From NCBI GenBank assembly GCA_021803105.1, contig JAJZMC010000006.1, positions 1-64,000 on the forward strand: DNA of 64,000 nt, read 5' to 3'. The notes under the pieces are model-generated. The model saw only the letters and a list, made by a program, of their open reading frames with translations. It made no database searches and was not told where the DNA came from. Origin of the DNA: a bacterium. GTDB lineage: Bacteria > Patescibacteriota > Saccharimonadia > Saccharimonadales > UBA4665. Below are positions 3,271 to 44,770 of this stretch, in pieces. The translations under genes and the position numbers were made by a program. Numbering within the stretch: position 1 is the stretch's first letter; each line of letters begins with the position of its first letter.

Positions 3271-3676
3271 ACTCTAAATTTACCAAAACTATTTGAGGTA
3301 AATGTTTAAAATCGCCATCTAAGGTCAGTAATCTGCCCCCTAGTTGTCTAGTAATAGCTGCTATCCAAATATCGTTGTTTGATAAGGCAATCCTATTTTG
3401 TTTAGCCCAGACGGCAAGCTCAGCGTAGATGAGAAACGTATCCTGATTTGGATATACCAACTCAAATAAGAGCTGTTGAATAACACTATTATACTTATCA
3501 AAATTATCAGCTTGTCGAGACCCATTCATAAATCCAAAACGAATCTCTGCATCGGTGGCAAGTGGGAATACATAACAATCAAAATCTTTGTTAGCCACCA
3601 CCTTAAGTATAGTTTTATCCTCATCTAGAAAACGCGATAAGGCAGTGGTATCAAAAACTAAAATCATTCTCGTCAT
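3269..3676 (-). CDS. vapC: PIN-domain toxin, VapC type
   Basis: PIN-fold ribonuclease with the acidic residues of the family: an early Asp (FDTTALS), a Glu in AEIRFG, and a C-terminal NDIWIAA plus LDGDF pair. Such toxins usually cleave tRNA or rRNA until bound by the antitoxin. I start it at the ATG beginning MTRMILVFDTT. An in-frame ATG at 3667 is equally possible, and a longer frame reaches 3715. The start overlaps the end of the upstream antitoxin by 17-26 nt, which is typical of coupled translation. It is the first of three PIN modules in a row. Confidence 0.8.
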   Translation of the reverse strand: MTRMILVFDTTALSRFLDEDKTILKVVANKDFDCYVFPLATDAEIRFGFMNGSRQADNFDKYNSVIQQLLFELVYPNQDTFLIYAELAVWAKQNRIALSNNDIWIAAITRQLGGRLLTLDGDFKHLPQIVLVNLE

Positions 3677-4037
3677 GCTTTTGCTTTGTCTTAGACGCAA
3701 TATCCATTTCCGCAATAGCTATTTCACTAGTAGCGATATCATGACTACTAATACGGTACCGACGGAGTGTTTCCTGTATTAGATGTAAACAGTCTTCTGT
3801 GGTATTAGTGCCAGCAATCTGTTTTAAAGCTTTCACTATAAGATTATTCAAACTCACGCCTTTGCGAGATGCTATTTTAGTAAGCTGCTGTTTTGTGTGT
3901 AAATCGACACCTCGGATAGTAAGTTGCAGATTTAAATCGTTCTTGCCTACATTATATAGCAGGCTTTGCCTGCATGTTAATACATACATACATACATAAT
4001 AATAATAATTATGCATAATACGACTTGTTTTTATCAT
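3651..4037 (-). CDS. Antitoxin with ribbon-helix-helix-like DNA-binding segment
   Basis: The recognisable part is DLNLQLTIRGVDLHTKQQLTK followed by a helix (SLNNLIVKALKQIAG), an Arc/FitA-like beta-helix-helix. An acidic C-terminal tail would bind the downstream VapC. The N-terminus is doubtful. The frame opens at 4037, but ATGs at 4016 and 3989 also occur, and the leader codons consist of simple repeats and a hairpin (GCAGGC-AAA-GCCTGC). The true protein may be about 100 residues. A four-unit tetranucleotide repeat lies between the possible starts and the conserved domain. Confidence 0.65.
   Translation of the reverse strand: MIKTSRIMHNYYYYVCMYVLTCRQSLLYNVGKNDLNLQLTIRGVDLHTKQQLTKIASRKGVSLNNLIVKALKQIAGTNTTEDCLHLIQETLRRYRISSHDIATSEIAIAEMDIASKTKQKHDENDFSF
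3981..4008. repeat. Tandem simple repeats (TACA)4 and (TAA)4
   Basis: Four TACA units (3981-3996) abut four TAA units (3997-4008) within the 5' end of the antitoxin reading frame. Loss or gain of one TACA unit would shift the frame between upstream ATGs and the DNA-binding domain. Confidence 0.8.
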
Positions 4038-4080
4038 TTTCTATTACAAACATCTCTGAATAAGAAATATTTAAATATAT

Positions 4081-4115
4081 TAGCAGGCCGTAGCTGACCA
4101 GGTTTGAGGCTATTT
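4081..4115. repeat. 35-bp direct repeat, copy 1
   Basis: The 35 nt beginning TAGCAGGCCGTAGCTGACC and ending GGCTATTT are identical at 4812-4846. Copy 1 ends two nt from the stop codon of the second VapC gene. The flanking AT-rich bases (TATAT) are also similar. It is not clearly palindromic and has no integron R boxes. Confidence 0.9.
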
Positions 4116-4117
4116 CG

Positions 4118-4489
4118 TTAACGAATCAAATCAATCACTATATCTTGAGCATACTTCTTAGATAACGACCTATCCAGCGTTACTAATCTACTGCAGCCCT
4201 CTCTGATTGCACAAGCAATTTGCAAAGCATCTTCAAAATCATAGCCTTTAAAGTTCATAAAAGCCCACTGAGCATCAGCATCAGTGACTGGTAGCCAACT
4301 AAAACTCTCCAGAAAACTCTTAACAGGCTCCCAAGGAAGTTTATCTCTTTCGACAAAATACATAACTAAATCAAGAGTTAAAGTCGAAATAGCTTTATTT
4401 TTGTCATTACTTAAGAATTGTTCACAAGATTTTGCACGAATTCGTTTTTGGATAACCTCTAATAGAACATTAGCATCTACAAAAATCAT
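4118..4489 (-). CDS. vapC: PIN-domain toxin, VapC type (second module)
   Basis: A complete 123-residue PIN protein. It opens MIFVDANVLLEV with the first catalytic Asp at 5. There is a Glu in the middle helix (YFVERD), then DFEDALQIA and TLDRSL near the C-terminus carrying the remaining acidic residues. It is predicted to be an RNA-cleaving toxin. Its ATG overlaps the stop of the upstream antitoxin in an ATGA arrangement (4486-4489), the usual coupling of toxin to antitoxin. The gene appears intact. Confidence 0.88.
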   Translation of the reverse strand: MIFVDANVLLEVIQKRIRAKSCEQFLSNDKNKAISTLTLDLVMYFVERDKLPWEPVKSFLESFSWLPVTDADAQWAFMNFKGYDFEDALQIACAIREGCSRLVTLDRSLSKKYAQDIVIDLIR

Positions 4490-4767
4490 TCACTGTACTT
4501 TCTTGAACGTAACTCGGAGATTTGTTCTTTAATACTACGAGGGTCTTGTTGAACTGAATCAGGCACCACTATGTCTTGTAGGCTCCGTAAACCCTGTCGG
4601 ATAGCTTCGGGTGAGCCACGTCGTAATGCCTGATTAGGGGCATCAACTGGCTGCAAAACTCCTATAACCTTATGCCGATAGCTAAGCTGTATAGAGTTTC
4701 CTAGTCCCAAATCATGAATAACTTGAGACATATTATCTCTTAATTGTTTTGTGGTAATCGTACTCAT
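4486..4767 (-). CDS. Phd/YefM-family antitoxin
   Basis: 93 residues opening MSTITTKQLRDNMSQVI, the Phd/YefM N-terminal dimerisation and DNA-binding fold, then IQLSYRHKVIGVLQPVD. The C-terminal half is charged and probably disordered until it wraps the VapC encoded next. The pair would repress its own promoter. The overlap with vapC is 4 nt. Phd-type antitoxins paired with PIN toxins are common. Confidence 0.85.
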   Translation of the reverse strand: MSTITTKQLRDNMSQVIHDLGLGNSIQLSYRHKVIGVLQPVDAPNQALRRGSPEAIRQGLRSLQDIVVPDSVQQDPRSIKEQISELRSRKYSE

Positions 4768-4811
4768 ACTATAAGTTTAACTTAAAGTAAAATATATTGT
4801 CAAGTTGAATA

Positions 4812-4846
4812 TAGCAGGCCGTAGCTGACCAGGTTTGAGGCTATTT
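4812..4846. repeat. 35-bp direct repeat, copy 2
   Basis: Identical to 4081-4115. It overlaps the last codon and stop (4841-4843) of the third, broken VapC gene, so the distal part of that gene sits in the repeat. Its position just 3' of a PIN toxin matches copy 1 and the decayed copy at 3243. Confidence 0.9.
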
Positions 4847-5220
4847 ATCAGCAAAGTACGTCTTTTCTAGAAGGTTATCGAAAGTTACTAGGCCTAATTT
4901 TTCACGACGAGTTCTAGCTAATAAGTAACAATTCGCAAAATCTAGGTTTATTTCAATTAATAAATTAATAATTGTCATAACAAGCTCTTCATTTTCATAC
5001 TTAAAAGCCTCCGTACGACCTACTAAAAGAAGTGCTTCACTGGTTTGTTTTCGATCACGACCAGTGCTACGTAGTACATAAGTAATCTCAACTACAACAA
5101 TGTCCGTTACTAAAAGTGTTGATGATTTTGCCTGCTCTAGTAATTTCTCGGCTTTTGGGCTTAATTCTTTATGATCGCCCAGCAACTACATTAATATGAA
5201 TCAGTATCAACTAACTGCAT
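4841..5220 (-). pseudogene. Frameshifted PIN-domain toxin (third module)
   Basis: The body (LLGDHKELSPKAEKLLEQ ... LGLVTFDNLLEKTYFADK) is a VapC lacking its first strand. That strand is found just upstream in another frame. ATG 5220 reads MQLVDTDSY and then hits TAA, and the body resumes at about 5185 in a different frame. Restoring the frame would give the typical MQLVDT...LLGDHKEL opening. The first catalytic Asp is therefore separated from the rest. Together with the nonsense mutation in its antitoxin, the module is dead or decaying. Confidence 0.8.
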
Positions 5221-5458
5221 ACTTATCTGCCAATTGAGCACCTATAGCCTGCTCCTTTTCGGAAGCTTTACCTTTGAATGTGGGCTTAGTTAATAATGCC
5301 CGTACTTCATTCAAATCTTTAGGTGCAGTTATGACTATCTTATTACTATCGTTAATCCTAAATGTAGTTTTACTAAGTTTATCTAGACCTAATTTTTCAC
5401 GGAATTCTTTAGGTATAGTAATCTATCCTTTACTAGTAATACTGTATGTGTTATTCAT
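5207..5458 (-). pseudogene. AbrB/MazE-type antitoxin with premature TAG
   Basis: From ATG 5458 the frame reads MNNTYSITSKG, stop, ITIPKEFREKLGL and then continues open to TGA 5207 (83 codons). This is the SpoVT/AbrB beta-hairpin antitoxin family, in which the stop position is normally Gln (SKGQITIP). One C-to-T change (CAG to TAG, 5425-5423) explains it. The 3' end overlaps the ATG of the broken toxin by 14 nt, as in a working module. No restart codon precedes the DNA-binding hairpin, so the antitoxin is probably not made. Confidence 0.85.
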
Positions 5459-5504
5459 ATTACTTATTGTATATGAGTAATACCTAAGTGTTAATAGTAT
5501 TACT

Positions 5505-5582
5505 TGGCGGGCCCGACCGGATTCGAACCGGCGATCTTCTCCGTGACAGGGAGACGTGATAGGCCAACTTCACTACGAGCCC
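5505..5582 (-). tRNA. tRNA-Asp(GTC)
   Basis: The acceptor GGGCTCG pairs with CGGGCCC (one wobble). The anticodon stem is TCTCC/GGAGA with loop CTGTCAC, giving GTC. The T arm is CCGG-TTCGAAT-CCGG. Discriminator G, and CCA is encoded. Confidence 0.95.
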
Positions 5583-5607
5583 ATAGCCATAGATTATACA
5601 ATATTTT

Positions 5608-6678
5608 TTAATATTTAATAAAATAATGTGGTGGTTGTTGTTTTGCAATACTATTCGTATAATCATGAACATTATTTAAAATAAACTTAATATGAGATGC
5701 TGTCACACTAGGACCTGATATTGAATCAATTTTTATAATCTCTAAAGTATACCCCGTATTAATAATTGGAGAAATTTGATTTACCTTCAAAGAAAAAAGT
5801 TCTGCCATTACTTGAGGAGCTAAACTACGATCTGTAGCAATAATAGGATTAGGATATTGACCTCCATTATTCTTAGTACTAATATCAGCAGAGTATTTGG
5901 CGGCTAAAGTAGCAAAATTTGCGCCATGCATTAATTGATTATAAACAGACTTAGCTTCATTAACTGTTTGATAATCTAAAGCATAAACAACTTTTTGCTG
6001 TAGTAATTCATTTTTTAATTCACGTTTAAAATCATTTATATTCCAACCCCAAAAATCATGCAAAATATTATTTAAGACACTAGGATTACTACCAAGTCTA
6101 TTTTGTTCTTGAAAATATATTATTTCATTATTAATTTCTTGGTTAGAAACACTAATATGATACTTCTTTGCTAAATATTTAACATAATAATTTAATACAA
6201 CCTGGTTCATAGCTTGAGTTTTTAAATTATTTAATTGTTTAGAATTATTTTTTAAAGAAAAATTAACTTGTTGTTGGGTTTCATAATAATGCATTTCTCT
6301 TCTAAGCTCAAACAGATAACTACTGTATGAAATCCAAGAATTACCTATTTTTGCAACTGGAAATGGGATGACATTAGTAACATCAGCTATAAAACTTGAT
6401 GTTGATTGTAAATCATAAAGCTCAATACTAGAAAACACAAAAAAACCGACAATTAAAATAACGAATAAAATAACTGAAATCCTAACAATATAATGTTGAC
6501 TGTGTTTAAGAGGATAAATATATTTTCTAGCACCCTTTAAAATATCCTCACGATGTTCAGTAAGTGTATCATTGGTAATTTTTGGTACATTCAAAAATGC
6601 ATCTTTCATCCGATCTTCTATTTTCTTTGTACGTCTAAAAATTAAATTAAATTTTAATCTTTTAATCTTCAATTTCAT
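5608..6678 (-). CDS. Membrane-anchored PpiC/SurA-type peptidyl-prolyl isomerase
   Basis: 356 residues. A basic cytoplasmic segment is followed by one membrane helix near 65-85. A SurA/PrsA-like chaperone region comes next (SYLFELRREMHYYETQQQV ...). The parvulin rotamase domain (ATLAAKYSADISTKNNGGQY ... QISPIINTGYTLEIIKI) lies near 240-320. It would help exported proteins fold outside the membrane. Pilins and the large secreted protein in this window are plausible clients, but that is inference. The start overlaps the end of the upstream PH-domain gene by 17 nt. Confidence 0.85.
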   Translation of the reverse strand: MKLKIKRLKFNLIFRRTKKIEDRMKDAFLNVPKITNDTLTEHREDILKGARKYIYPLKHSQHYIVRISVILFVILIVGFFVFSSIELYDLQSTSSFIADVTNVIPFPVAKIGNSWISYSSYLFELRREMHYYETQQQVNFSLKNNSKQLNNLKTQAMNQVVLNYYVKYLAKKYHISVSNQEINNEIIYFQEQNRLGSNPSVLNNILHDFWGWNINDFKRELKNELLQQKVVYALDYQTVNEAKSVYNQLMHGANFATLAAKYSADISTKNNGGQYPNPIIATDRSLAPQVMAELFSLKVNQISPIINTGYTLEIIKIDSISGPSVTASHIKFILNNVHDYTNSIAKQQPPHYFIKY

Positions 6679-7270
6679 TATTATCCTTATTATTTATTTC
6701 ACTCATAAAATCAACATTAGTAATATTTAATTGACGTAAAATACTTTGTAATTTATTCTGAATATTACCTGGATGATGGACGTCGTGAATAATTAAATCT
6801 CCAATATATGTTTGTATCTTAATAGTCCCATAACTAAGTAACGTTTGTTGTAAGCCAGCTATTACATAACTAATTGATTGAATTTGTTCTAGTTTAATAT
6901 CTGCAACGGCTCTATGAAAAAAACCTTTTTGAACAATTTGAATAAATCTCTGATTAGTTACAATAAATAAACTAAAGTACCAACTTACCCAACTAGGTAA
7001 CAATATTATTATACCAAATATAAAACCAACAATCAGTCCACCGAAGAAATAACCAAAACCAAGCTGAGGTTGAATGGCTGCAGGTAAAACCCCAATTAAT
7101 GGACCAAATAAACCTAATACTAGCCCTTTTCTCATAACTACAGGGTGTTTACGAAAAACATATAAAACAGCCTCATCATCAAATTGATCCTTAAAATAAC
7201 GATAACCTGTATTAGCTGGCGTTTTACTAAGGTCCATATCTAAATATTGTATCATTAATTTATAATACAT
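6662..7270 (-). CDS. PH-domain (bPH2/YdbS-like) membrane protein
   Basis: 202 residues. Two long hydrophobic segments lie near 50-95. A bacterial PH domain follows (YFSLFIVTNQRFIQIVQKGFF, then DIKLEQIQSISY and IKIQTYIGDLI), as in the YdbS/YdbT family. The biochemical role of this family is poorly known; it is generally membrane or envelope related. It is translationally coupled to the PpiC foldase gene by a 17-nt overlap, suggesting a shared envelope function. Confidence 0.75.
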   Translation of the reverse strand: MYYKLMIQYLDMDLSKTPANTGYRYFKDQFDDEAVLYVFRKHPVVMRKGLVLGLFGPLIGVLPAAIQPQLGFGYFFGGLIVGFIFGIIILLPSWVSWYFSLFIVTNQRFIQIVQKGFFHRAVADIKLEQIQSISYVIAGLQQTLLSYGTIKIQTYIGDLIIHDVHHPGNIQNKLQSILRQLNITNVDFMSEINNKDNNEIED

Positions 7271-7396
7271 ATTTACCCGATATAAATAATTCGCAGTTAT
7301 TTTTACGAATAATCCAATAATTTGTCAACTAAGTTAATAATCTATCAACACAATAAAAGAAATAATACATCCAAGTAATATATTAAACTTGTTAAA

Positions 7397-7537
7397 ATGG
7401 TGCGCGAGCTGGATAGTAGGTGGAACCGTTTTGAGAGTAGTTTAAGATCATTACAAGTTAAATTAAATAACTTAGGTTTAATACTTAAAGATAATGAGAT
7501 CATTTATCTTGAAGATGAGGTAAATTATCATGTTTAA
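7397..7537 (+). CDS. 46-residue ORF upstream of PLD-like gene, unknown
   Basis: An open frame MVRELDSRWNRFESSLRSL... ending NYHV. Its last codons overlap the ATG of the next gene (7530) by 8 nt, which suggests translational coupling. It could also be the remaining fragment of a longer gene. No recognised domain; a short amphipathic helix near residues 10-25 is apparent. Confidence 0.35.
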   Translation: MVRELDSRWNRFESSLRSLQVKLNNLGLILKDNEIIYLEDEVNYHV

Positions 7538-7838
7538 GTATTTATCTGCCATTAAACGAATAGCAGTACCGGACAACTCAGATCTGTTTGACAGTAATAC
7601 TTTTTACCCTAGACTCTTAAAAAATTTAAAGAAAGCTAACTGCGAACTTATTATAGAAAGCCCTTACCTAACAACTAAAAGATTAGATTACCTATTCCCT
7701 ACTATTCAAATATTAAAAAATAAACGTATCAAAATAATAATTAATACTAAAGACCCAGCAGAGTTAGATAATGAGTATTTAAAATCTGAAGCAAACAAAG
7801 TTATTGCAAAACTATTACATCTAAGGATTAAGGTCTAG
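7530..7838 (+). pseudogene. Truncated phospholipase-D-like protein
   Basis: 102 residues resembling the first half of a PLDc_2 domain: CELIIESPYLTTKRLDYLF, then a helix and KRIKIIINTKDPAELD, with the final strand LRIKV. The catalytic HxK motif that should come right after the last strand is missing because a TAG ends the frame, and no HxK continuation is visible in other frames before 7888. It is probably a gene remnant, though a standalone small protein cannot be excluded. PLD-like domains of this type occur in helicases and restriction enzymes. Confidence 0.5.
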
Positions 7839-7887
7839 TTAAATATGACCTTCGAAAAAATTTATAATACTATCGAACATTGAATTT

Positions 7888-9057
7888 TTATCGTAACAAC
7901 TGTATAGCATTATTTTTTGTAATAATTTCTACTGGGATACCATAGGTATTTGTGAAACTTTTAGAACCAACAGTGGAGCTTTGTTTTGACCATTTAAATT
8001 CGTAGGCTTTGAACATATTCGTACCTCTAACCACTAAATCAACTTCTTTGCCGTCTGTTTTACGCCAAAAATACAAATTGTTCCTGTCTCCTTGCATAAG
8101 ATTTTTTTTGACAATCTCAGTAATAATCCAATTTTCAAATAAAGAACCAATATCACTTCGTAATGGTGATAAAGAAAACTCTTTGAGTAGTGCATTTCGT
8201 ACGCCAGTGTCCCAAAAAAATATTTTATTAGACTTACCGATCTCTTTTCTTTGATTTGTACTAAACCCCCGAAGACGGAAAATTACATAGGATCGTTCTA
8301 ATAAATCTAAGTACCTATCAATTGTTTGACGAGATATATGTAATGTTCTTTGTAGCTCATCAACCACCACTTCGCTACCAGCCTGATAAGCCAATAACTC
8401 AAGTAAACGTTTTACTGGCTCCGGAGATTTAACCAAACCACCTTGTAGTACATCCCGTAATAAATAATCAGAAGTCAGATTTAATAAATATTTTTCTTTA
8501 TCCTCGGAAGTAATTGTCGCAGGATACGAACCATAGACCATTTGTTGCAGCAGAAGAGTTTGAACTTGACCATTAAACTGTTCACTAAGCATTTTTTTTG
8601 TTATTTTAGGAGAATACCAAGGCTGAATACGAAGTACTTCCGAAAACAAAAGTGGAGTTAGATATTGTTTTTCATTTCTACCTGTCAATGGTTCCGATGC
8701 TATATCGAGTAAATCAAGGCTTGATGATCCTAGTAGTACGATTTTTATAGGGAGACGGGCATCATACCAACCTTTTACTATCCTACCAATTTCAGGAAAA
8801 GTTTGTGCTTCATCTATAACTAAGAGTTTTGGATTACCTAAAAATTTAATCGCTTCAGTTGGATTAAGAGTACTAGCGGCAGACAATCTTGCTTTATCTA
8901 CAGATATATCACAATTTAATAAAAGACCCCCAACTTTTTGAACGAAAGGTTCAATCATGGTCGTTTTACCGACTTGCCTTGCCCCTAGTAGAATAATAAC
9001 CTTATTGTCATTTAATAAATCTTGAAGCTGTTTTTCGATATCTCTCGATATATACAT
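7888..9057 (-). CDS. AAA+ ATPase with DUF4143 C-terminal domain
   Basis: 389 residues. Walker A is GARQVGKT (25-32) and Walker B is LLVIDEAQ (about 77-84). A winged-helix-like middle follows (VVDELQRTLHISRQTID), then the DUF4143 part with a restriction-nuclease-like signature (FFWDTGVRNAL ... KTDGKEVDLVV ... AYEFKWS). This AAA_14/DUF4143 family is common and scattered by transfer. Its function is unknown, with proposals of DNA binding or defence. It is monocistronic, next to the PLD-like remnant and a tRNA, consistent with an accessory insertion. Confidence 0.88.
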   Translation of the reverse strand: MYISRDIEKQLQDLLNDNKVIILLGARQVGKTTMIEPFVQKVGGLLLNCDISVDKARLSAASTLNPTEAIKFLGNPKLLVIDEAQTFPEIGRIVKGWYDARLPIKIVLLGSSSLDLLDIASEPLTGRNEKQYLTPLLFSEVLRIQPWYSPKITKKMLSEQFNGQVQTLLLQQMVYGSYPATITSEDKEKYLLNLTSDYLLRDVLQGGLVKSPEPVKRLLELLAYQAGSEVVVDELQRTLHISRQTIDRYLDLLERSYVIFRLRGFSTNQRKEIGKSNKIFFWDTGVRNALLKEFSLSPLRSDIGSLFENWIITEIVKKNLMQGDRNNLYFWRKTDGKEVDLVVRGTNMFKAYEFKWSKQSSTVGSKSFTNTYGIPVEIITKNNAIQLLR

Positions 9058-9200
9058 AATATTTATAGTTTACAATATAACCCGATAATTTGTAAAGTAC
9101 ATTTTATATATTTACTAATCCAACAACTACTAAACTACAAATTCTTAACTCTTACTGTTTAAAATGACGTTCTTTGGCGAAAAAACTTTAAATATTAAAA

Positions 9201-9275
9201 TGGTGCCTCCGAGAGGATTCGAACCTCTAGCTCTTCCTTAGGACGGAATTATTTTATCCATTGAACTACGGAGAC
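9201..9275 (-). tRNA. tRNA-Arg(CCT)
   Basis: The acceptor GTCTCCG pairs with CGGAGGC. The anticodon loop is GTCCTAA on a four-pair stem with one terminal mismatch. The T arm is AGAGG-TTCGAAT-CCTCT. Discriminator A, and CCA is encoded. It reads AGG. Confidence 0.92.
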
Positions 9276-9298
9276 AAAAAATATTTATCCAACTATTT

Positions 9299-9799
9299 TT
9301 AACTTGGTTGAGTAAACTGTTCATGAACGGTTTTATACTCAAAAATTTCCTCATTATTAAACCAATGATTAATTTCAGATACAGCTTCAGTTTTATCAGC
9401 AGAAGCATGAACAATATTCGCAACTCCCCTACCAACTTTAGCGGCAGCTCCATAATTTACATGAGCAAAATCTCCTCTAATAGTTCCCGGCATTGCTTTT
9501 TTAGGTTCAGTTTCTCCAACCATTTTTCGCACCGTCTCAACAGCTTCAATTCCTTCTAAAATCATTGCAATTACAGGACCATCTTGCATACTAGCTAATT
9601 GACTTTCAAAAATTTCTTCTCCTTTTCTAGATTTTAAAGTACCAATTTCTTCATAATGTTTATATAAATGTTGATAATCTGGTTTAACCATTTTCATTGC
9701 TAAAATTTTAAAACCTGCTTGCTCAAATCTTGTCAAAATTAATCCAACAATCCCACGCATTACACAATCTGGTTTAAAAATTACTAAAGTTCTTTCCAT
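9299..9799 (-). CDS. ndk: Nucleoside diphosphate kinase
   Basis: 166 residues that cover the whole family fold from ERTLVIFKPDCVMRGIVG through GTIRGDF to NIVHASAD, whose His (near 130) is phosphorylated during transfer of the gamma phosphate between nucleotides. It keeps (d)NTP pools balanced. It is longer than the usual 140 residues because of a charged C-terminal extension (NNEEIFEYKTVHEQF), also seen in some other Ndk proteins. No Shine-Dalgarno is visible. Confidence 0.96.
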   Translation of the reverse strand: MERTLVIFKPDCVMRGIVGLILTRFEQAGFKILAMKMVKPDYQHLYKHYEEIGTLKSRKGEEIFESQLASMQDGPVIAMILEGIEAVETVRKMVGETEPKKAMPGTIRGDFAHVNYGAAAKVGRGVANIVHASADKTEAVSEINHWFNNEEIFEYKTVHEQFTQPS

Positions 9800-9913
9800 T
9801 TATTATTATGTCCTATTTAATTCATCTTATTTTAACAGACATACTAGATTAACAACAAACCTTAATTTTAAAAGTATCATAATGATAATATTATGTTTTA
9901 TACTTAATCTATT

Positions 9914-10831
9914 ATGCAATTCGATAAACTTAAATATGAATTTTTAGAGTATTTAGAAATTGAAAAAAATCGTTCTGCAAAAACTATTAAAAATTATGAT
10001 CATTATCTAACTAGATTAAGTGATTTTGCTGGTGATATATCAATTAATGATTTAAATGATGAACTAATTAGAAAATGGCGTTTATGGTTAAATAGACTAG
10101 GAACAAATGTTAAAGATGAACTAGATAAATCAACTCAAAATTATCACTTAATAGCTTTAAGAAATTTTTTAAAATATTGTCATAAACGTAATATTGACAC
10201 TTTAGCAGCTGAAAAAATTGAACTTGCGTCGACTATTCGAAAACAGGTTACTTTTTTAACTAAAGATGAACTTAATAGATTATTTAATCAACCTAATGTT
10301 AATAATGTTATTGGTCTAAGAGATAAAGCAATCTTAGAATTATTATTTAGTTCAGGCATGAGAGTTAGTGAACTAGTTAGTGTTAATAGAGATCAAATTA
10401 ATCTTGAACGAGGAGAATTTACTGTTCGAGGTAAAGGACAGAAAGATCGACCCATCTTTATTAGTTCTGATGCAAAAAACTGGCTCATAAAATATATGGC
10501 CAAAAGAATAGATACAGCACAACCATTATTTATACATTATAGTAATGGTCATAAAATAATCGATAATTCAGGTAATTTTAAACGTTTAACAACTAGAAGT
10601 GTTCAAAGATTAGTTAATCACTACGCTCTACTGGCAGGTATCACTAAACATGTTAGTCCTCATGTTTTAAGACATTCATTTGCTACTGATTTATTAATGA
10701 ATGGTGCTGATATTAGAAGTGTACAGTCTATGCTTGGGCATAGTAATATTGCCACTACTCAAATATATACTCATATAACTGATACTCATCTAAAAGAAAT
10801 CCATAAAAATTTTCATAACAAAACAATCTAG
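9914..10831 (+). CDS. Tyrosine recombinase, XerC/XerD type
   Basis: 305 residues. The N-terminal SAM-like domain (FLEYLEIEKNRSAKTIKNY) binds DNA. The catalytic domain has Arg in SSGMRVSE (near 149), the HVLRHSFATDLL box (near 250), MLGHSN (near 272) and the nucleophilic Tyr in QIYTHIT (near 282). All five catalytic positions appear intact. Length and housekeeping context fit dimer resolution of the chromosome at dif rather than a phage integrase. A TATACT box 9 nt before the ATG suggests a very short or absent leader. It is convergent with the pilus operon, with 1 bp between stops. Confidence 0.93.
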   Translation: MQFDKLKYEFLEYLEIEKNRSAKTIKNYDHYLTRLSDFAGDISINDLNDELIRKWRLWLNRLGTNVKDELDKSTQNYHLIALRNFLKYCHKRNIDTLAAEKIELASTIRKQVTFLTKDELNRLFNQPNVNNVIGLRDKAILELLFSSGMRVSELVSVNRDQINLERGEFTVRGKGQKDRPIFISSDAKNWLIKYMAKRIDTAQPLFIHYSNGHKIIDNSGNFKRLTTRSVQRLVNHYALLAGITKHVSPHVLRHSFATDLLMNGADIRSVQSMLGHSNIATTQIYTHITDTHLKEIHKNFHNKTI

Positions 10832-10832
10832 A

Positions 10833-11930
10833 TTACAGACCACCACAAGATATAGGAGCTCTATTAGAAATAGAGCCTGGTCGGGCCGTAAAATCTTTAC
10901 AAATACTATTTTGCGATAATATAGCTTGACTAGGCGCTTGATTATTACAAATTGTACTAATACAAATTCTTTCTTCAATACGTCTAGATACTCCAGATGC
11001 AACACCAGTAGAATCAATTAATGCTTGGGACCCGAAAAAACTAATTTGATTATTTGATAAATTAGAATTAAAAGCTGTTACTGATACATCAGCACTGGAA
11101 TAATAAGGTACTATATGAACATAATACCCAGAACTTTGGCGTGGTGGTGAAATCATAACATTACAAGTAAACTCACCCTGAGCTGTTAAAGTAGAGCTAC
11201 AATTCCCTACTAAAACATGTCCATTAAAGTTATTAACTGCTAAATATCTACCATTATAAGGGAATATAAAATAATTATTGGTACGACTAATAATAAAAGA
11301 AGTGCTATTTTTAACATCATTCATTGGAACAATATCAAGTTCCAATATTGGCGCTGAACAATTAGTATAGTTAGCTATACTAGGAAATTTACCAGGTGGT
11401 GGACAATTAGAAAATGATAAAGCACTATTTAAGTTATGTGTCTGCCAACTTATATTAATCCTTGCGATATTAGTAGCTGAAGTATTTTGTACTGGAAAGG
11501 CTTCTCCAACATTTTGTACTATAGGCTTATACTCTAAAGAATATGGTTCAGGGTTAACCAGTAAACAACTATAACTTGCCGAACTATTAATAGCTGATAT
11601 TGAAGAATTAGTATAAACATTATTATGACTATTATCAACTATGCAATTGTTAGTCTGAACAGGTAAATTAGCTAAATTTTGACCAGCTTTTTCATAGGCT
11701 GTAATAATACTATAGGCAGTATTAATTCCGCTTTCAGCCGCATAATAAGCTTCTGTACTAAGAGCATTATCCAATGTAACTTGTTGATCATGCCTAGTAG
11801 TAGCCGAAAATCCTAAAGCAATTAAACCCACTATCACCATAATTAACATGCTAATGATAATTGCGGCATATCCTGACTCGTTATAAGATTTTATTTTTAT
11901 ATACATCCTAACAGTATTATATAACTTCAT
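10833..11930 (-). CDS. PilX/GspK-like minor prepilin
   Basis: 365 residues, last gene of the pilus operon. The N-terminal region ESGYAAIIISMLIMVIVGLI resembles a prepilin cleavage site (Gly before Tyr) plus hydrophobic helix, but it lacks Glu at mature position 5. That lack is typical of PilX/GspK minor pilins, which sit at the tip and prime assembly. The TEAYYAAESGIN stretch after the helix is characteristic of PilX-N. The rest is Ser/Asn-rich and contains paired cysteines. It abuts the upstream prepilin at 11930. Confidence 0.75.
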   Translation of the reverse strand: MKLYNTVRMYIKIKSYNESGYAAIIISMLIMVIVGLIALGFSATTRHDQQVTLDNALSTEAYYAAESGINTAYSIITAYEKAGQNLANLPVQTNNCIVDNSHNNVYTNSSISAINSSASYSCLLVNPEPYSLEYKPIVQNVGEAFPVQNTSATNIARINISWQTHNLNSALSFSNCPPPGKFPSIANYTNCSAPILELDIVPMNDVKNSTSFIISRTNNYFIFPYNGRYLAVNNFNGHVLVGNCSSTLTAQGEFTCNVMISPPRQSSGYYVHIVPYYSSADVSVTAFNSNLSNNQISFFGSQALIDSTGVASGVSRRIEERICISTICNNQAPSQAILSQNSICKDFTARPGSISNRAPISCGGL

Positions 11931-12589
11931 TAAATATTTCCAATCCTTGATGTTACTGTGGTAGATAAAGAACTAACAGCACATAACGAAACACTAAAAG
12001 CCGAGATAACACATCTATATTTATAAGGTGGAGCTGGATCAGATGCGGTATTTAAAGTCTGTAAAACGCTATTATTACCATAACCAATTGTAAGAGAAAT
12101 ATCATAAATATTATTATTTTGACTTATTGCAAGTTGACCCACTCTCTCATTTTGAGATAAAAGTTGTCTGCTACTACCTATATTAATTGAAGTTGGATAA
12201 ACACAATTTGGTGATAAACTATTTGTAAGCTGTAATAAACCAGCCACTTGATTATTGCTTGTAAACAGCTGGTTTAAACTATAGATATACTCATAACTAC
12301 CAATACAAAAATAATAATTATTAGTAGATGAATTTAATTGTGGTAACACAATATTATTATTACTATTATCATCAAATTTAATCGCGTTAGCTAAATTCAT
12401 TAAAATAGCCTGAGAATTATCTTGATTTTTAATAACAACTTGACCCTCAACATAAGTCTTACTAACATAAATTATAGCAATCGTTGCGATTAACAATATG
12501 CTTGAAAAAACTACGGTTGATATCATTAACTCAATTAACGTAAAACCTTTGCTGTTTACTTTTTTATTATAAATTTTAAACTTTTTCAT
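11930..12589 (-). CDS. Type IV minor prepilin (PilW-like)
   Basis: 219 residues. The class III leader SKG precedes FTLIELMISTVVFSSIL, with the conserved Glu at mature position 5. The leader is short and basic. The globular part is Asn/Ser-rich with a few cysteines near the end (KYRCVISAFSVSLCAV). It would be processed by the PilD homolog in the same operon and assembled in the pilus, probably near the tip. PilW-like is assigned from order and size only. Confidence 0.8.
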   Translation of the reverse strand: MKKFKIYNKKVNSKGFTLIELMISTVVFSSILLIATIAIIYVSKTYVEGQVVIKNQDNSQAILMNLANAIKFDDNSNNNIVLPQLNSSTNNYYFCIGSYEYIYSLNQLFTSNNQVAGLLQLTNSLSPNCVYPTSINIGSSRQLLSQNERVGQLAISQNNNIYDISLTIGYGNNSVLQTLNTASDPAPPYKYRCVISAFSVSLCAVSSLSTTVTSRIGNI

Positions 12590-12602
12590 TATTAACTTGT
12601 TT

Positions 12603-13217
12603 TTAACATTGAATATTTCTAGCCTGTGGTCTGTATGCTAAAGTTACCCTACTATAACTACCAGACAACGATTTATTATAATTTCCAACCAGTAATGATG
12701 GCCAAGTAACATCAACATTATAATTATAGTTACTAATCGTACAACTACTTCCACCACCTAAATTGATAGTAGGAAAAGTTACTGGTTGACTCGTTATAGC
12801 TACTTTATAACAATAATGACCAGCATTTAAACAGTTAGTAGTACTAGTCACACCTTGAGCGATCGCATTACTCAAAACACCGCACTGATTATACGAAACT
12901 GGTACATCAGCAGTATTAAAACAAAAAGAACTATTACTTGTACCACTGACTTGAGCGTTACCACAAATAACACCTAATGTAGCTTCTGGACAACTGTGAG
13001 ACTTGTTATTAATATTAGTATACCAAGCAATTAATGATTCAACTTGAGATTGGGCAATCGTTAAAGCTTCCGCATGTTCTTGTGAATCTCTCAATGTTAA
13101 TGTTGATGTATTAACGGATACATAAGCTCCAACTAAAATGACAGACAATATGGCGATTGATAATAAAACCTCAATTATAGTATCGCCACGCTGTAAATAT
13201 AACTTTTTCATATACAA
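12603..13217 (-). CDS. Type IV minor prepilin (PilV-like)
   Basis: 204 residues with leader YLQRG before DTIIEVLLSIAILSVIL. The first mature residue would be Asp rather than the usual Phe, and Glu5 is present. The helix continues AYVSVNTSTLTLRDSQ, as in PilV/GspI. Multiple cysteines (at least eight) in the globular part suggest disulfides outside the cell. It overlaps the upstream prepilin gene by 10 nt. Confidence 0.75.
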   Translation of the reverse strand: MYMKKLYLQRGDTIIEVLLSIAILSVILVGAYVSVNTSTLTLRDSQEHAEALTIAQSQVESLIAWYTNINNKSHSCPEATLGVICGNAQVSGTSNSSFCFNTADVPVSYNQCGVLSNAIAQGVTSTTNCLNAGHYCYKVAITSQPVTFPTINLGGGSSCTISNYNYNVDVTWPSLLVGNYNKSLSGSYSRVTLAYRPQARNIQC

Positions 13218-14107
13218 TTCTTCTTATTATACAGGATGGTTGTTAAAGCTTTATAACTACTATTTGTCTGTGATCCAATAATTAAATCAGCTGAAATACC
13301 TAAACTACTATCATTAAGACATATTCTAACACCGCTACCAGGATTTATTGGAGCTATGGAATCAGGAATTATAGAATTAGATGTTGGATTAATCATACAA
13401 ATTGACTGCTGTATAGTTTGACAACTATCAGTTAACTGATTAACATTTCTGGTTAAACTTGGAATTGATAAATTACCACTATAATATGGCTCCAGTGGTG
13501 CAATATTAATATATTGAGAACTTGAATTTAATAAACTACTTTGAGTAGAAATATACTGATTAAACTTATTATATAACAAAAAACTATTAATTGGTTTTCT
13601 AGTGCTCGAAGCGAGATAATAAACTGAATAAACCGATAGTCCACTAGGAACATTGTATGTTCGATTTAAAATAGCTGAAGTTATAGGCTCAGCTTGTGCC
13701 AAATTAACTGAATTAGGCTGTAATTGATTAATAGTATTATTTTTAAAAGTATAACCAAATACCGGTAATACATTAAGTGTCCAAGATTGATTATAATTAT
13801 TATTAGTAAAAGACAAAACAGATCCTAAATACATACAATCTGGTGAAGTAGTACTACCACTCGCGATATTTGATATATATAATCGATTTGGACCAGGTAG
13901 ACAATAATAATTATTAGGTAAACTATAATTACCTTCTGCTGTATTATTAATATAAGTTTGTATTTGTGTTTTCAATAAACCTAACCCTACCCTAAATTGA
14001 TCTTCATTTTGCGTTTTTAAAAGATTAGAAATACCAAAAATAAATAAAGCCCCAGCTATCGCTAAAAAAAGCATTAATTCAACAATCGTAAAACCATTTT
14101 TATTCAT
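13208..14107 (-). CDS. Type IV minor prepilin
   Basis: 299 residues. The very short leader MNKNG precedes FTIVELMLFLAIAGAL, with Glu5 conserved. The remainder is a large Asn/Ser/Tyr-rich globular domain with about seven cysteines (for example LPNNYYCLPG and QQSICMIN), larger than a standard pseudopilin. It heads the four-gene minor pilin block downstream of pilD. Its exact counterpart in model systems (FimU, PilE) is not clear. Confidence 0.8.
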   Translation of the reverse strand: MNKNGFTIVELMLFLAIAGALFIFGISNLLKTQNEDQFRVGLGLLKTQIQTYINNTAEGNYSLPNNYYCLPGPNRLYISNIASGSTTSPDCMYLGSVLSFTNNNYNQSWTLNVLPVFGYTFKNNTINQLQPNSVNLAQAEPITSAILNRTYNVPSGLSVYSVYYLASSTRKPINSFLLYNKFNQYISTQSSLLNSSSQYINIAPLEPYYSGNLSIPSLTRNVNQLTDSCQTIQQSICMINPTSNSIIPDSIAPINPGSGVRICLNDSSLGISADLIIGSQTNSSYKALTTILYNKKNCI

Positions 14108-41622: not shown

Positions 41623-43215
41623 TTATGGATTAGTATTAAATTGCATTGGAATAGGTGGTGGAACAGGCGGAGGAGAATTATCATTAATATCCGTCAAATT
41701 TTCATCAGAAAGTAAATTCTTTTTTGTTAAATCATGTAATGGTTCAATTCTGAGTTCATGAGGTTTTACTCCGTCATCTTTAACTTCTGATTTAGCTATT
41801 ACTTCTCCAGTATTTTGATCAATACTTATTTCACTATCATTTTTATCGGATTCTATATGTGACAATTCAACCAAAGGTTTTGCATTTAAAGCTTTAATAG
41901 GTTCTAAACGTTGTTCACTTTTATCATCAAGTAGTGCTTTTGATACTTCGTCTCGGGCTTCATCAATTTTATTTTGAGGAGAATTATCATTTTCAGAAGA
42001 AGAAATTGGTAATACATTATTTGTTGTTAAAGTTTGACCTTCATTAGTTTCAGTATTAATTACTGGAGGTAAAGTCATATCTACGTCGGTTGATGGTGTA
42101 GAAAGACTGCTTAAATAATTTCCACTCAAAGGATCTATTGATGGATCTAAAGATTCAGGGCTAGCATTAGCCGTAATAGGATTATTAATAGCTGGTGGTT
42201 CAGTCATGAATTTAGCTGTTGGTAAATCAGTTTTTGATTTAGATGTAACTGAAAATAAATCAATATCCGATTTACTTCCAATTTCATTAGCTTCTTCTAA
42301 GTTAGCTACTATGTCACTATTACTTTTTGAAGGATTATTAATTGATGTTTTACTATCTTCATTATGTTGAATTGATAAATCACCAAAATTAGACGAATTA
42401 TCATTGGGTTTATTTTTATCATCTGGTTTATTATCTTGTTTTTCTTGTTTAGATACGGATTCAGTATTATTTTGATTTTGAGATAATTTATTAACTACTA
42501 ATTGTTGATTAGCTCCAGCTGCCATTAATTTCGACCCGATAGATAATGTATTTGATGTAGTTTTGTCATTACTAAACCTATCTGTCGATGCTACGATACC
42601 AGTTAATAGAGCAGTAGCAATTTGATTATCTAATAAATTTTCCCCTAATTCAAAAGATAGCTCAGTAATTAGCTCACTTAGACTACTACTCTCATTATTA
42701 ACAAAATTAATTGTACCAAGATCACTAGTATTGAAAACGCTGATAGTTGCAACAGTTGCATCATGTAAAATTCTACCATGAGAAGTAATAGCCTGATCTA
42801 AATCTTCTTTTAAACTAACACCTAAGGCTATAACCATTTCAACATTAAAATCACCTTTTGAAAATTCTAAATCAGATTCATTAATCGATGTTTTATAAGG
42901 TGTAATATAAATCTTTACTTGGTCATTTTCTTGTTTATAGCGCAATTTGTCTGCCTTATTTTTATCTAAAGCAATAATAAAATCCCTTAAGCTATCCGTG
43001 TTTTTTTCAATTGTTTCATCTGGTTGTAAAAAATCTAAAGTTGACGGTATAACACCACTAAAAACAGCTGTACCGTGTTTATTTAATTTATTAATTAATA
43101 ATGTAAGTCCAATACAACTAGCTAATTGATCAACTGATGGATTTTTACTAACAGTTACTAAAATATTATTAGCAGATCGGATTTTTTCAATTAATTCTGT
43201 TCTTTGATTATTCAT
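41623..43215 (-). CDS. Degenerate DHH-like phosphoesterase with long disordered tail
   Basis: 530 residues. The N-terminal 240 resemble NrnA/DHH proteins (RSANNILVTVSKNPSVDQLA, RILHDATVATISVF, LLTGIVASTDRFS), but the metal ligands are replaced. The first DxD is NPSVDQ and the DHH motif is not recognisable. The remaining ~290 residues are Ser/Asp/Asn/Pro-rich, acidic, and end PPPVPPPIPMQF. It is probably a non-catalytic scaffold or nucleotide binder derived from NrnA. Family known by context with truB. Confidence 0.6.
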   Translation of the reverse strand: MNNQRTELIEKIRSANNILVTVSKNPSVDQLASCIGLTLLINKLNKHGTAVFSGVIPSTLDFLQPDETIEKNTDSLRDFIIALDKNKADKLRYKQENDQVKIYITPYKTSINESDLEFSKGDFNVEMVIALGVSLKEDLDQAITSHGRILHDATVATISVFNTSDLGTINFVNNESSSLSELITELSFELGENLLDNQIATALLTGIVASTDRFSNDKTTSNTLSIGSKLMAAGANQQLVVNKLSQNQNNTESVSKQEKQDNKPDDKNKPNDNSSNFGDLSIQHNEDSKTSINNPSKSNSDIVANLEEANEIGSKSDIDLFSVTSKSKTDLPTAKFMTEPPAINNPITANASPESLDPSIDPLSGNYLSSLSTPSTDVDMTLPPVINTETNEGQTLTTNNVLPISSSENDNSPQNKIDEARDEVSKALLDDKSEQRLEPIKALNAKPLVELSHIESDKNDSEISIDQNTGEVIAKSEVKDDGVKPHELRIEPLHDLTKKNLLSDENLTDINDNSPPPVPPPIPMQFNTNP

Positions 43216-43314
43216 TTTTTTATTTTAGTTTTAATAATTTAACTCTATCATAAATAATGACATTTGTACATAATAATAATGATACAGTTCATCAAAAATC
43301 TATTCATAATTCTT

Positions 43315-43458
43315 ATGTTTAGTGCAGCAAGTGAGAAAAGTTTACACCTTATTACAGACGAGATGGTCCGTTGAAGGAAAGTTTTAGAAGAACGACAATC
43401 AAAATTACTTACTCTACAAATAAAAGCCGGGAATTACACCCCACTAGTATATTTATGA
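43315..43458 (+). pseudogene. Decayed relative of the 55-residue ORF at 44186
   Basis: From ATG 43315 the frame reads MFSAASEKSLHLITDEMVR, stop (43372), then RKVLEERQSKLLTLQIKAG to TGA 43458. It aligns with the ORF at 44186 around SLHLI(T/R)DE, then R and LE. The nucleotide runs GAGAAA, GTTTACA-CTTAT and AATTTTAGA-like blocks are shared. It lies in the convergent position downstream of the 226-residue gene. Confidence 0.5.
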
Positions 43459-44133
43459 TAGAGTAAATGGCTGAAGTGCAGTAAACCCAATCCTACGTAC
43501 ATTTTCTAAGAGTCGTTCGTGTTGTTTCTTATATTTTTCATTAAACACTTCAAGATCTCTATATTCGATTTCGAATACACCATTTTTAAAAGTCGGGCAT
43601 TCAACTAACATTCTTCTTGTATGCTCAAATGTTAATAAGTTATCTATCGCCAACTGTTTGTCTTTACGTTTTTTATTTTCATATTCAATAGTCACGTCTC
43701 TGTTTATTATTTCTATAAACGAACTCCACAATTGCCTTAGTTCAACTTGGTCTTTTATATATTCTGTACCGACTAATCGTCCTTGATAATTAATTTTATA
43801 ACACCTTCCTTCAATCGCTTCTTTATTGATAAATATCTGCCAAATTATTCTTGCATCATTATTAGATCGACTTAATTGCCATAAATAAATATCTTCACTT
43901 TGCCTAGTTGCATCAAATATTAAAGTATCGATGGATGGTAGTGTTTGGAGATCTTGATATTCATATTGAAATTGCTGGATAACAACACCATATCCCTCAC
44001 TCATTAATTCTTGTCGGGATTTCCAGTAATATTCAGAAAAATTAAATGCATTGGTTATAGTAGATTCTGACGGTATTAAAAAAGCGACCTCAGGTCGCTT
44101 ATCTGCTTCATCTATATTTTCTAGTATGTGCAT
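43453..44133 (-). CDS. Unknown 226-residue protein with terminator in its 5' codons
   Basis: A soluble, charged protein (RPEVAFLIPSESTITNAF, FDATRQSEDIYLWQL, MLVECPTFKNGVFEIEYRD, KKQHERLLENVRRIGFTALQ). No recognised family. A strong rho-independent terminator lies within codons 8-16 (44088-44110), so most transcripts from its own promoter should stop unless antitermination or a downstream start is used. An internal ATG begins MSEGYGVVIQ. It is flanked by an intact small ORF (44186) and a decayed copy of it (43315), which looks like an accessory cassette amid housekeeping genes. Confidence 0.6.
   Translation of the reverse strand: MHILENIDEADKRPEVAFLIPSESTITNAFNFSEYYWKSRQELMSEGYGVVIQQFQYEYQDLQTLPSIDTLIFDATRQSEDIYLWQLSRSNNDARIIWQIFINKEAIEGRCYKINYQGRLVGTEYIKDQVELRQLWSSFIEIINRDVTIEYENKKRKDKQLAIDNLLTFEHTRRMLVECPTFKNGVFEIEYRDLEVFNEKYKKQHERLLENVRRIGFTALQPFTLS
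44088..44110 (-). terminator. Intrinsic terminator inside the 226-residue gene
   Basis: On the minus strand AAGCGACC pairs perfectly with GGTCGCTT across the 3-nt loop TGA and is followed directly by a run of T (total six with the stem end). The codons read DKRPEVAF. GC-rich stem in AT-rich surroundings. Confidence 0.75.
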
Positions 44134-44185
44134 ACTAAGTTTTCATTTTAACATAATTTGTCGAAATCTAGCAATCTAAATTTTT

Positions 44186-44353
44186 ATGATGAATGTAGTA
44201 TGTGGAGAAAGTTTACATCTTATCAGGGACGAACAACTAGCTCGTTTGAGGCAAATTTTAGAGATACTGTTAAATTCAATGTTACCATATATTGAGGCAT
44301 TGTTTTCATTCAGTTTCATACAATCAAATAATTGGAACAAATTACAAGCATAA
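44186..44353 (+). CDS. 55-residue ORF, unknown, paralogous to decayed ORF at 43315
   Basis: MMNVVCGESLHLIRDEQL, then a Leu-rich helix (ARLRQILEILLN) and a hydrophobic end (YIEALFSFSFIQ). It is divergent from the 226-residue gene with about 50 bp between the starts. It has no clear Shine-Dalgarno. The similarity to the pseudo-ORF at 43315 is the main argument that it was a coding sequence under selection. Confidence 0.45.
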   Translation: MMNVVCGESLHLIRDEQLARLRQILEILLNSMLPYIEALFSFSFIQSNNWNKLQA

Positions 44354-44437
44354 TCTTTTATATAAAAACATAAGTACTTTACAATCTATAATTTCAGCTA
44401 TATAGTTAACATAAAGATTATAAAATGAAGGAATAAT

Positions 44438-44770
44438 ATGCCAATTATTAAATCAGCTAAAAAAAGAGTTAAAACAGCTCATAAAGCTGCTGTTCGTAAC
44501 AGTAAAACCAAAAGATCTTTAAAATCTGCACTCAAAAACTTTCAATCTGCTCTCAAAACAAACAGTAAATCAGTTAAAAAGACTCAAACTCAATTACAAA
44601 GTGCTATTGATAAAGCCTCAAAAAAGAATGTTATCCATAAAAATAAAGCCAATCGTTTAAAAAAACGAGCAGCTAAAACGGCTAAGGCTCAAACAAAAAC
44701 AGTCTCTTCAAGTAAAAAAACAGTCAAAAAAACTAGCCCTAAATTAAAAAGTAAAAAAACAGTCAAATAA
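44438..44770 (+). CDS. rpsT: Ribosomal protein bS20 with Lys-rich tail
   Basis: 110 residues. Core PIIKSAKKRVKTAHKAAVRN, then helices with LQSAIDKASKKNVIHKNKA and NRLKKRAAKTAK. Family length is about 85-90; the extra 20 residues are a repetitive Lys/Ser tail (SSKKTVKK ... SKKTVK). AAGGA lies 6 nt before the ATG. Monocistronic and convergent with holA. Confidence 0.95.
   Translation: MPIIKSAKKRVKTAHKAAVRNSKTKRSLKSALKNFQSALKTNSKSVKKTQTQLQSAIDKASKKNVIHKNKANRLKKRAAKTAKAQTKTVSSSKKTVKKTSPKLKSKKTVK

Follow-up and report, generated by a model that had tools for sequence, protein, structure and literature searches.

A hairpin followed by a run of T residues lies within the first codons of a 226-codon gene of a Saccharimonadales bacterium, and raises the question of how a gene may carry a terminator in its own reading frame and still be expressed. 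The same locus raises a second question, that of the nature of the two related small open reading frames that flank this gene. Both are considered here from a window of 64,000 nucleotides, the whole stretch of DNA that was analysed (contig JAJZMC010000006.1 of assembly GCA_021803105.1, positions 1 to 64,000), and from related genomes. Saccharibacteria are tiny host-dependent bacteria, and literature searches on them returned almost nothing about mechanisms of this kind for regulating or capturing genes. The putative attenuator and the repeat described below point to modes of gene control, and of gene exchange, that have so far not been described for these organisms.

The gene, its locus and its homologs

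According to the ORF list, the gene occupies positions 43453..44133 on the minus strand (44133->43453) of a genome of 810 kb in 11 contigs. Its neighbours are rpsT (44438-44770, plus strand; named from sequence) and a gene for a DHH-family protein (41623-43215, minus strand; weak Pfam match). With its own promoter and attenuator, both predicted, it is a one-gene cassette placed between two copies of a 121-bp repeat. The gene is absent from six other genomes of the genus and scarce in the family and order; this distribution rests on profile searches of genomes, because a pattern scan of GTDB contigs for the 226-residue protein found none.

The protein belongs to no family in Pfam, NCBIfam or PDB sequences, gives only weak matches to PHROGs, and its predicted fold yielded no significant match in a structure search. 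CapZ and Rad50, which recurred as weak matches (TM about 0.2), were not used as fold relatives. Profile searches, each sampling only about 400 genomes, identified homologs in G038 (locus L002), G087 (L003), G176 (L036), G324 (L037), G435 (L081), G439 (L082), G357 (L085; a longer protein of 512 residues) and G078 (L114; found among tilS loci). The set of nine, including the window gene, is a small sample; identities are about 18-29%, and in these searches the family was found only in Saccharimonadales.

In six of these loci (L003, L037, L081, L082, L085 and L114), tilS lies downstream of the gene and in the same direction, and ftsH comes after tilS wherever enough of the locus is available (both named from sequence). 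At L081, an antisense phosphatase gene separates the homolog from tilS. In the window's genome, tilS (C9:2317) adjoins a phosphatase gene and the 226-codon gene is not there, so that the latter appears to have been relocated.

A hairpin and T-run within the early codons

The candidate intrinsic terminator, a putative attenuator covering codons 12-19, is located at 44075..44100 on the minus strand and reads AAGCGACC TGA GGTCGCTT TTTTAAT. Read in the direction of the gene (44100-44075), it consists of a perfect 8-bp stem with five GC pairs and a TGA loop, and then TTTTAAT. The sequence-only reading had noticed this perfect GC-rich hairpin and its T residues, and was right as to their presence; it had assigned them to codons 8-16, which has to be corrected, the stem corresponding to codons 12-17 and the T-run to codons 17-19. 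A terminator scan of positions 43200-44500 returned two sites, compared with 0.3 (sd 0.7) in shuffled sequences, the early-codon hairpin being the stronger one. An Rfam search gave chance-level snoRNA matches only.

The homologs provide the main evidence. A hairpin followed by a T-run is found at codons 10-31 in eight of the nine, namely, the window gene and seven of the eight others, and none of the eight hairpins extends past codon 31; L003, which has no early-codon hairpin, is the sole exception. The stems of the relatives are AGAGGC-aacaagaa-GCCTCTTTTTTT at L002, GACCTCC-caatc-GGAGGTCTTTTAATTTT at L036, ACCACC-gcaa-GGTGGTATTTTTTT at L037, GAGTCC-gagca-GGGCTCATTTTTTTT at L081, CGGCC-gac-GGCCGTTTTTTT at L082, ACACCAG-tgcaagag-CTGGTGTTTTT at L085 and AGCGGCT-gag-AGCCGCTTTTTTT at L114. 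The eight stems differ from one another and are unrelated in sequence, while their position is equivalent. A conserved terminator in the 5' codons of related genes, proposed beforehand as a check, was found in silico in eight of nine cases.

Could such hairpins arise by chance, as a by-product of FF- or GG-type residues near the N-terminus? A motif of the G-x-F-F type does recur in these proteins. This possibility was evaluated by synonymous shuffling, in which the protein was held fixed, codons were drawn from the same gene, and a terminator was sought in the first 40 codons over 2000 trials. A terminator appeared in 489 trials for L037 and 216 for L114 (24% and 11%, respectively), two cases that taken singly would suit a chance origin, but in only 6 trials for the window gene, 1 for L002, 16 for L036, 5 for L081, 38 for L082 and 32 for L085, that is, 0.05-2% for these six. 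The product of the eight per-gene chances is about 2e-16, calculated from the counts with the homologs treated as independent, an assumption that their unrelated stems support. The genomic background of early-codon terminators is also low: a strict scan of the 381 ORFs of the window's genome detected six sense-strand intragenic terminators, and that of the window gene alone fell within the first 40 codons. Under looser settings, the same genome contained seven sense terminators in 381 ORFs, three of them in the first 40 codons versus 0.9 expected, and the complete genome of a relative, G081, contained 23 in 904 ORFs, of which six lay in the first 40 codons versus 2.8 expected. Chance is thus a very improbable explanation, and for the set of eight hairpins as a whole it is already refuted. 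The early-codon hairpin is almost certainly real and under selection at the RNA level, and its form, a stem followed by T residues, indicates that it probably acts as a terminator.

Predicted promoter, transcript start and protein N-terminus

A putative promoter, TTGCTA-18-TAAAAT (44145..44174, minus strand; 9 of 12 positions matching, with TG before the -10 box), precedes the window gene, whose ATG lies 11 nt past the -10 box. This layout, TAxxxT followed by 11 nt and ATG, is common to all nine homologs, and most of the eight that bear the hairpin have YYAGT or YYAGA directly before the ATG. With transcription starting 6-8 nt after the -10 box, a leader of 3-5 nt is predicted and the mRNA would be near-leaderless. 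Counted from the promoter at 44174-44145, an RNA terminated at the hairpin would measure about 60 nt, which replaces the earlier estimate of about 45 nt. In the complete genome G081 (L136-L186), -10-like hexamers are enriched before the ATG of ORFs, with a peak at 6-11 nt, and near-leaderless mRNAs therefore seem common in the Saccharibacteria lineage, as far as we can infer from such enrichment.

The hairpin could alternatively be the terminator of an upstream unit, whether a gene or a cassette that precedes this one, in which case the true start codon would be located further downstream. Such a placement has precedent in other arrays, where terminators are frequent at 24-60 nt past the repeat, counted in the gene direction; overall, 18 of 48 repeats have one within 100 nt beyond their left edge in this direction, compared with 1.8% expected by chance, and here the hairpin is about 90 nt beyond repeat copy 2. 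However, the promoter and ATG precede the hairpin at conserved spacing in all hairpin-bearing homologs, including homologs that lie outside arrays, and no in-frame start is consistently found after the hairpin, the next ATG of the window gene being codon 44, inside the predicted fold. Moreover, the upstream neighbour is divergent at the window gene, L002 and L036, which excludes a terminator of an upstream unit at these three loci. We consequently judge this explanation to be quite improbable. The sequence-only reading had held that homologs lacking the N-terminal segment would assign the terminator to such a unit; what was found is an independent hairpin at equivalent codons in eight of the nine homologs, and attenuation was not refuted on this account.

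The protein models are in keeping with a role of this segment in the RNA. In the AF2 model of the window protein (pLDDT 81, pTM 0.73), residues 1-21 fall below pLDDT 50 and form a disordered N-tail, followed by a helix, six beta strands and further helices; the first helix starts from residue 22, directly after the T-run codons. In the AF2 model of the L082 protein, residues 1-32 are disordered and the fold begins at residue 34, while the hairpin ends at codon 28-31. Since the tail is disordered in both models, they indicate that the conserved element in this segment, for which no fold is predicted, is the RNA feature.

A conserved RNA feature could also be a binding site, perhaps for the gene product itself in an autoregulatory circuit, or a site for an RNase, with an incidental T-run. 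Many leader elements are autoregulated, the position of the hairpin is conserved, and the protein has no assigned function, all of which would suit such a role. Against it, the stems have no sequence or loop motif in common, and the sole property that unites them is that of a terminator, namely, a GC-rich stem with T-rich sequence after it. A binding or processing site hence seems unlikely to us, and we retain termination as the preferred function of the hairpin.

A terminator proposed to be relieved by the leading ribosome

How, then, would the full-length mRNA be made? We favour, with somewhat more confidence than doubt, an attenuator embedded in the ORF and relieved by the leading ribosome, in a manner resembling pyrL. 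RNA polymerase would start 3-5 nt before the AUG and, after about 50-95 nt, would have transcribed a hairpin and U-run which, within codons ~10-31 of the same ORF, would constitute an intrinsic terminator, and many transcripts would be expected to stop at this early-codon U-run. A ribosome loading at once on the 5' end and following closely would hold the hairpin open and allow the polymerase to continue, so that full-length mRNA would be produced only if initiation and early elongation were fast enough. In the arrangement seen in six homologs, the attenuator would gate a gene upstream of tilS-ftsH. The position-conserved hairpins, the near-leaderless layout, the disordered tail, and the repeat family with its placement come from in silico analysis, while termination at the hairpin in vivo and its relief by the ribosome are what we infer from them. 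The attenuation hypothesis put forward at the outset gains in silico support, through independent hairpins and T-runs at equivalent early codons in eight of nine homologs.

In E. coli, a terminator that falls within the initial 100 bp of a coding region can work efficiently, whereas later ones are repressed (PMC4824070), and the pyrL terminator is prevented only under close coupling across pyrL (PMC5021804). The pyrL/pyrBI system resembles the present one in having an intrinsic terminator within a translated leader, blocked by a closely following ribosome (PMC5021804). It differs in that the terminator here is part of the structural gene itself and in frame with it, at a distance of 10-31 codons from a start that is near-leaderless. 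Instead of encoding a distinct leader peptide, leader and gene form one ORF with no stop codon between them; this ORF is open across the terminator, and the N-terminal codons are open in all homologs. Attenuators of the trp/his type likewise have an early terminator under translational influence, as proposed here, but in the present leaders no alternative hairpin was established and no run of regulatory codons was seen. A 5' hairpin that would pair the start region (CTAGTAT/ATACTAG) occurs in several leaders at a frequency not beyond that of synonymous shuffles (Fisher p = 0.06) and is suggestive without reaching significance. Inspection of the leaders by eye showed no codon signature for a specific amino-acid signal, and sensing of AUA codons in relation to tilS was discarded, as several leaders contain no AUA (read from sequence). 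If the proposal is true, a terminator kept by selection within the opening codons of a near-leaderless gene would represent a simple sensor of translation, and would offer a direct test of transcription–translation coupling in a reduced lineage.

The 121-bp repeat and its cargo

The flanks of the gene had been described as an intact 55-codon ORF at 44186 and its broken relative at 43315. Alignment reverses this description, both being copies of a 121-bp repeat. Repeat copy 1 (43319..43439, plus strand; nhmmer 4e-23) is full length, with its peptide frame broken by a frameshift and stops, and its right end lies about 14 nt from the stop codon of the gene. A weak terminator-like hairpin, detected by the terminator scan at the 3' end of the gene (43428..43443, minus strand), is formed partly from this right end. 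Repeat copy 2 (44190..44268, plus strand; nhmmer 1e-7, Infernal 7.6e-8), the upstream border of the cassette, corresponds to the degenerate first two thirds of the element: the 55-codon ORF (44186-44353) resembles its relatives only over 44190-44268 and then continues into unrelated sequence.

Two more copies are present on contig 8 of the window's genome. A sequence-only model of the repeat matched 45 of 93 family genomes at E <= 1e-3, with at least 60 bits in 21 of them, the weakest matches being uncertain; among named records, matches are almost exclusively to Saccharibacteria or Patescibacteria MAGs. The ends of the element, GGTGCAGCAAGTGGGTAAAAGTTTACACC and GGGAGTTACAC, are conserved, and it encodes a conserved 34-residue peptide in the frame VQQVGKSLHLIRDEIxRWRKILEVPYQEYLLSK. 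Codon differences among intact copies are synonymous in 55% of cases in the peptide frame compared with 8-41% when any of the other five frames is read. A coding-like pattern, as expected of a peptide frame under purifying selection, is therefore seen in the middle of the repeat, whereas the left end, where no codon pattern is found, looks conserved as DNA. A 3' end of a longer parent gene was dismissed as the origin of the repeat, as the DNA searched contains no long ORF with the peptide, and so was a viral origin, given that IMG/VR and phage records yielded no match.

For 33 of 48 distinct full-length repeats, a gene on the opposite strand ends at a stop codon that lies within -20 to +60 nt of the right edge (4.2% expected). 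Between copies lie PIN/AbrB, PIN/Phd and BrnT/BrnA toxin–antitoxin pairs, and genes for NUDIX, methyltransferase, HAD, VOC and peptidase E proteins (named from sequence), which is typical accessory cargo. We can state with little room for doubt that the flanks of the window gene are members of a family of repeats bordering cassettes. The proposed duplication around a cassette thus survives in a wider sense, the two flanks being members of one dispersed family of repeats found at the borders of single-gene cassettes. The idea of a two-gene accessory system does not, as the small ORFs are repeat copies found beside many dissimilar genes; nor does the same gene pair recur in relatives, the homolog loci (L187-L195) holding no repeat. 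As a marker, the 121-bp repeat would give access to the accessory cassette pool of Saccharibacteria.

One such array is found in the window's genome itself (L023; G000 contig 8, 45000-58519). Over 7147-13231 of this locus, genes for a glycosyltransferase, PIN/Phd, a HAD hydrolase, NUDIX, PIN/AbrB, a SAM methyltransferase and BrnT/BrnA pairs are aligned on one strand with two repeat copies, and the peptide frame of the copy at 9108 is still open. Elsewhere, a cluster of divergent peptide or repeat copies with weak matches (L057; G037 contig 2, about 3500-8400) may represent a further subfamily of this repeat.

Is the repeat a recombination site?

That the repeat serves as a recombination site is a candidate explanation with rather less than an even chance. 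A competing explanation, which we also place somewhat short of even, is that the repeats represent a mobile peptide gene, or a 3'-end element, whose presence beside genes reflects no more than its spread. The latter would account for the purifying selection on the peptide frame (55% synonymous against 8-41% elsewhere), and agrees with the structural searches: the single-strand fold energy of the repeat is no better than that of shuffles (z -0.2 to +1.3), which gives no attC-type folding, and its consensus contains no visible RYYYAAC...GTTRRRY pair. Neither a dedicated nor an IntI-type integrase was found near the arrays, and the single tyrosine recombinase that most array-bearing genomes possess lies at a distance from the repeats. 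A search for dif in the complete genome G081 gave chance-level matches only, and the G081 array is not at the terminus.

Simple spread of a peptide gene fits poorly, on the other hand, with the placement of the repeats at the stop codons of cassette genes in opposite orientation. For cassettes common to L044 and L051, and to L028 and L038-L040, homology stops at the repeat edge. Furthermore, L129 (3365-5144) has, between repeat copies, an extra cassette with a 500-residue gene, plus a repeat, that is absent at the same site from L133 (6001-6112), the two genomes being otherwise collinear. An upstream segment of ~40 nt (GTGCGGG..GAAGAGG) is duplicated in L129 along with the extra cassette. The breakpoints are mosaic, which leaves a strictly site-specific exchange not proven.

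Two known systems are of interest here. Integron cassettes (attC/IntI) resemble the present arrays in consisting of single-gene cassettes in one orientation, with an element of ~120 bp just past the stop codon and with toxin–antitoxin and enzyme genes as cargo; they differ in that the repeat here has no attC fold, encodes an antisense 34-residue peptide and has no integrase near its arrays. In the dif/pdif modules of Acinetobacter, adaptive or toxin–antitoxin genes are flanked by short sites in an Xer-mediated system (PMC6449649), and most array-bearing genomes here have the host's own Xer as their single tyrosine recombinase, but the site is 28 bp long (11-6-11) in that system compared with 121 bp here, where no dif-like match was found in the complete genome G081. 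The repeat suggests that genes are exchanged along a route distinct from that of classical integrons. We can propose, as a rather doubtful synthesis, that Saccharimonadales possess an integron-like cassette exchange operating through a 121-bp peptide-encoding repeat, with no dedicated integrase and possibly with the single host Xer, and that one of the cargo genes would be controlled by an in-frame early terminator, its near-leaderless mRNA reaching full length only when a ribosome follows without delay.

With regard to recombinases, the only tyrosine recombinase of the window's genome is Xer-like (~307 codons) and is located at about 10253-10786, in the region 9700-11200 on the plus strand. 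In another genome (L025; G034 contig 26, 13874-16295), a large serine recombinase gene and a terminase-small-subunit-like gene are present 2.5 kb from an array of four repeats.
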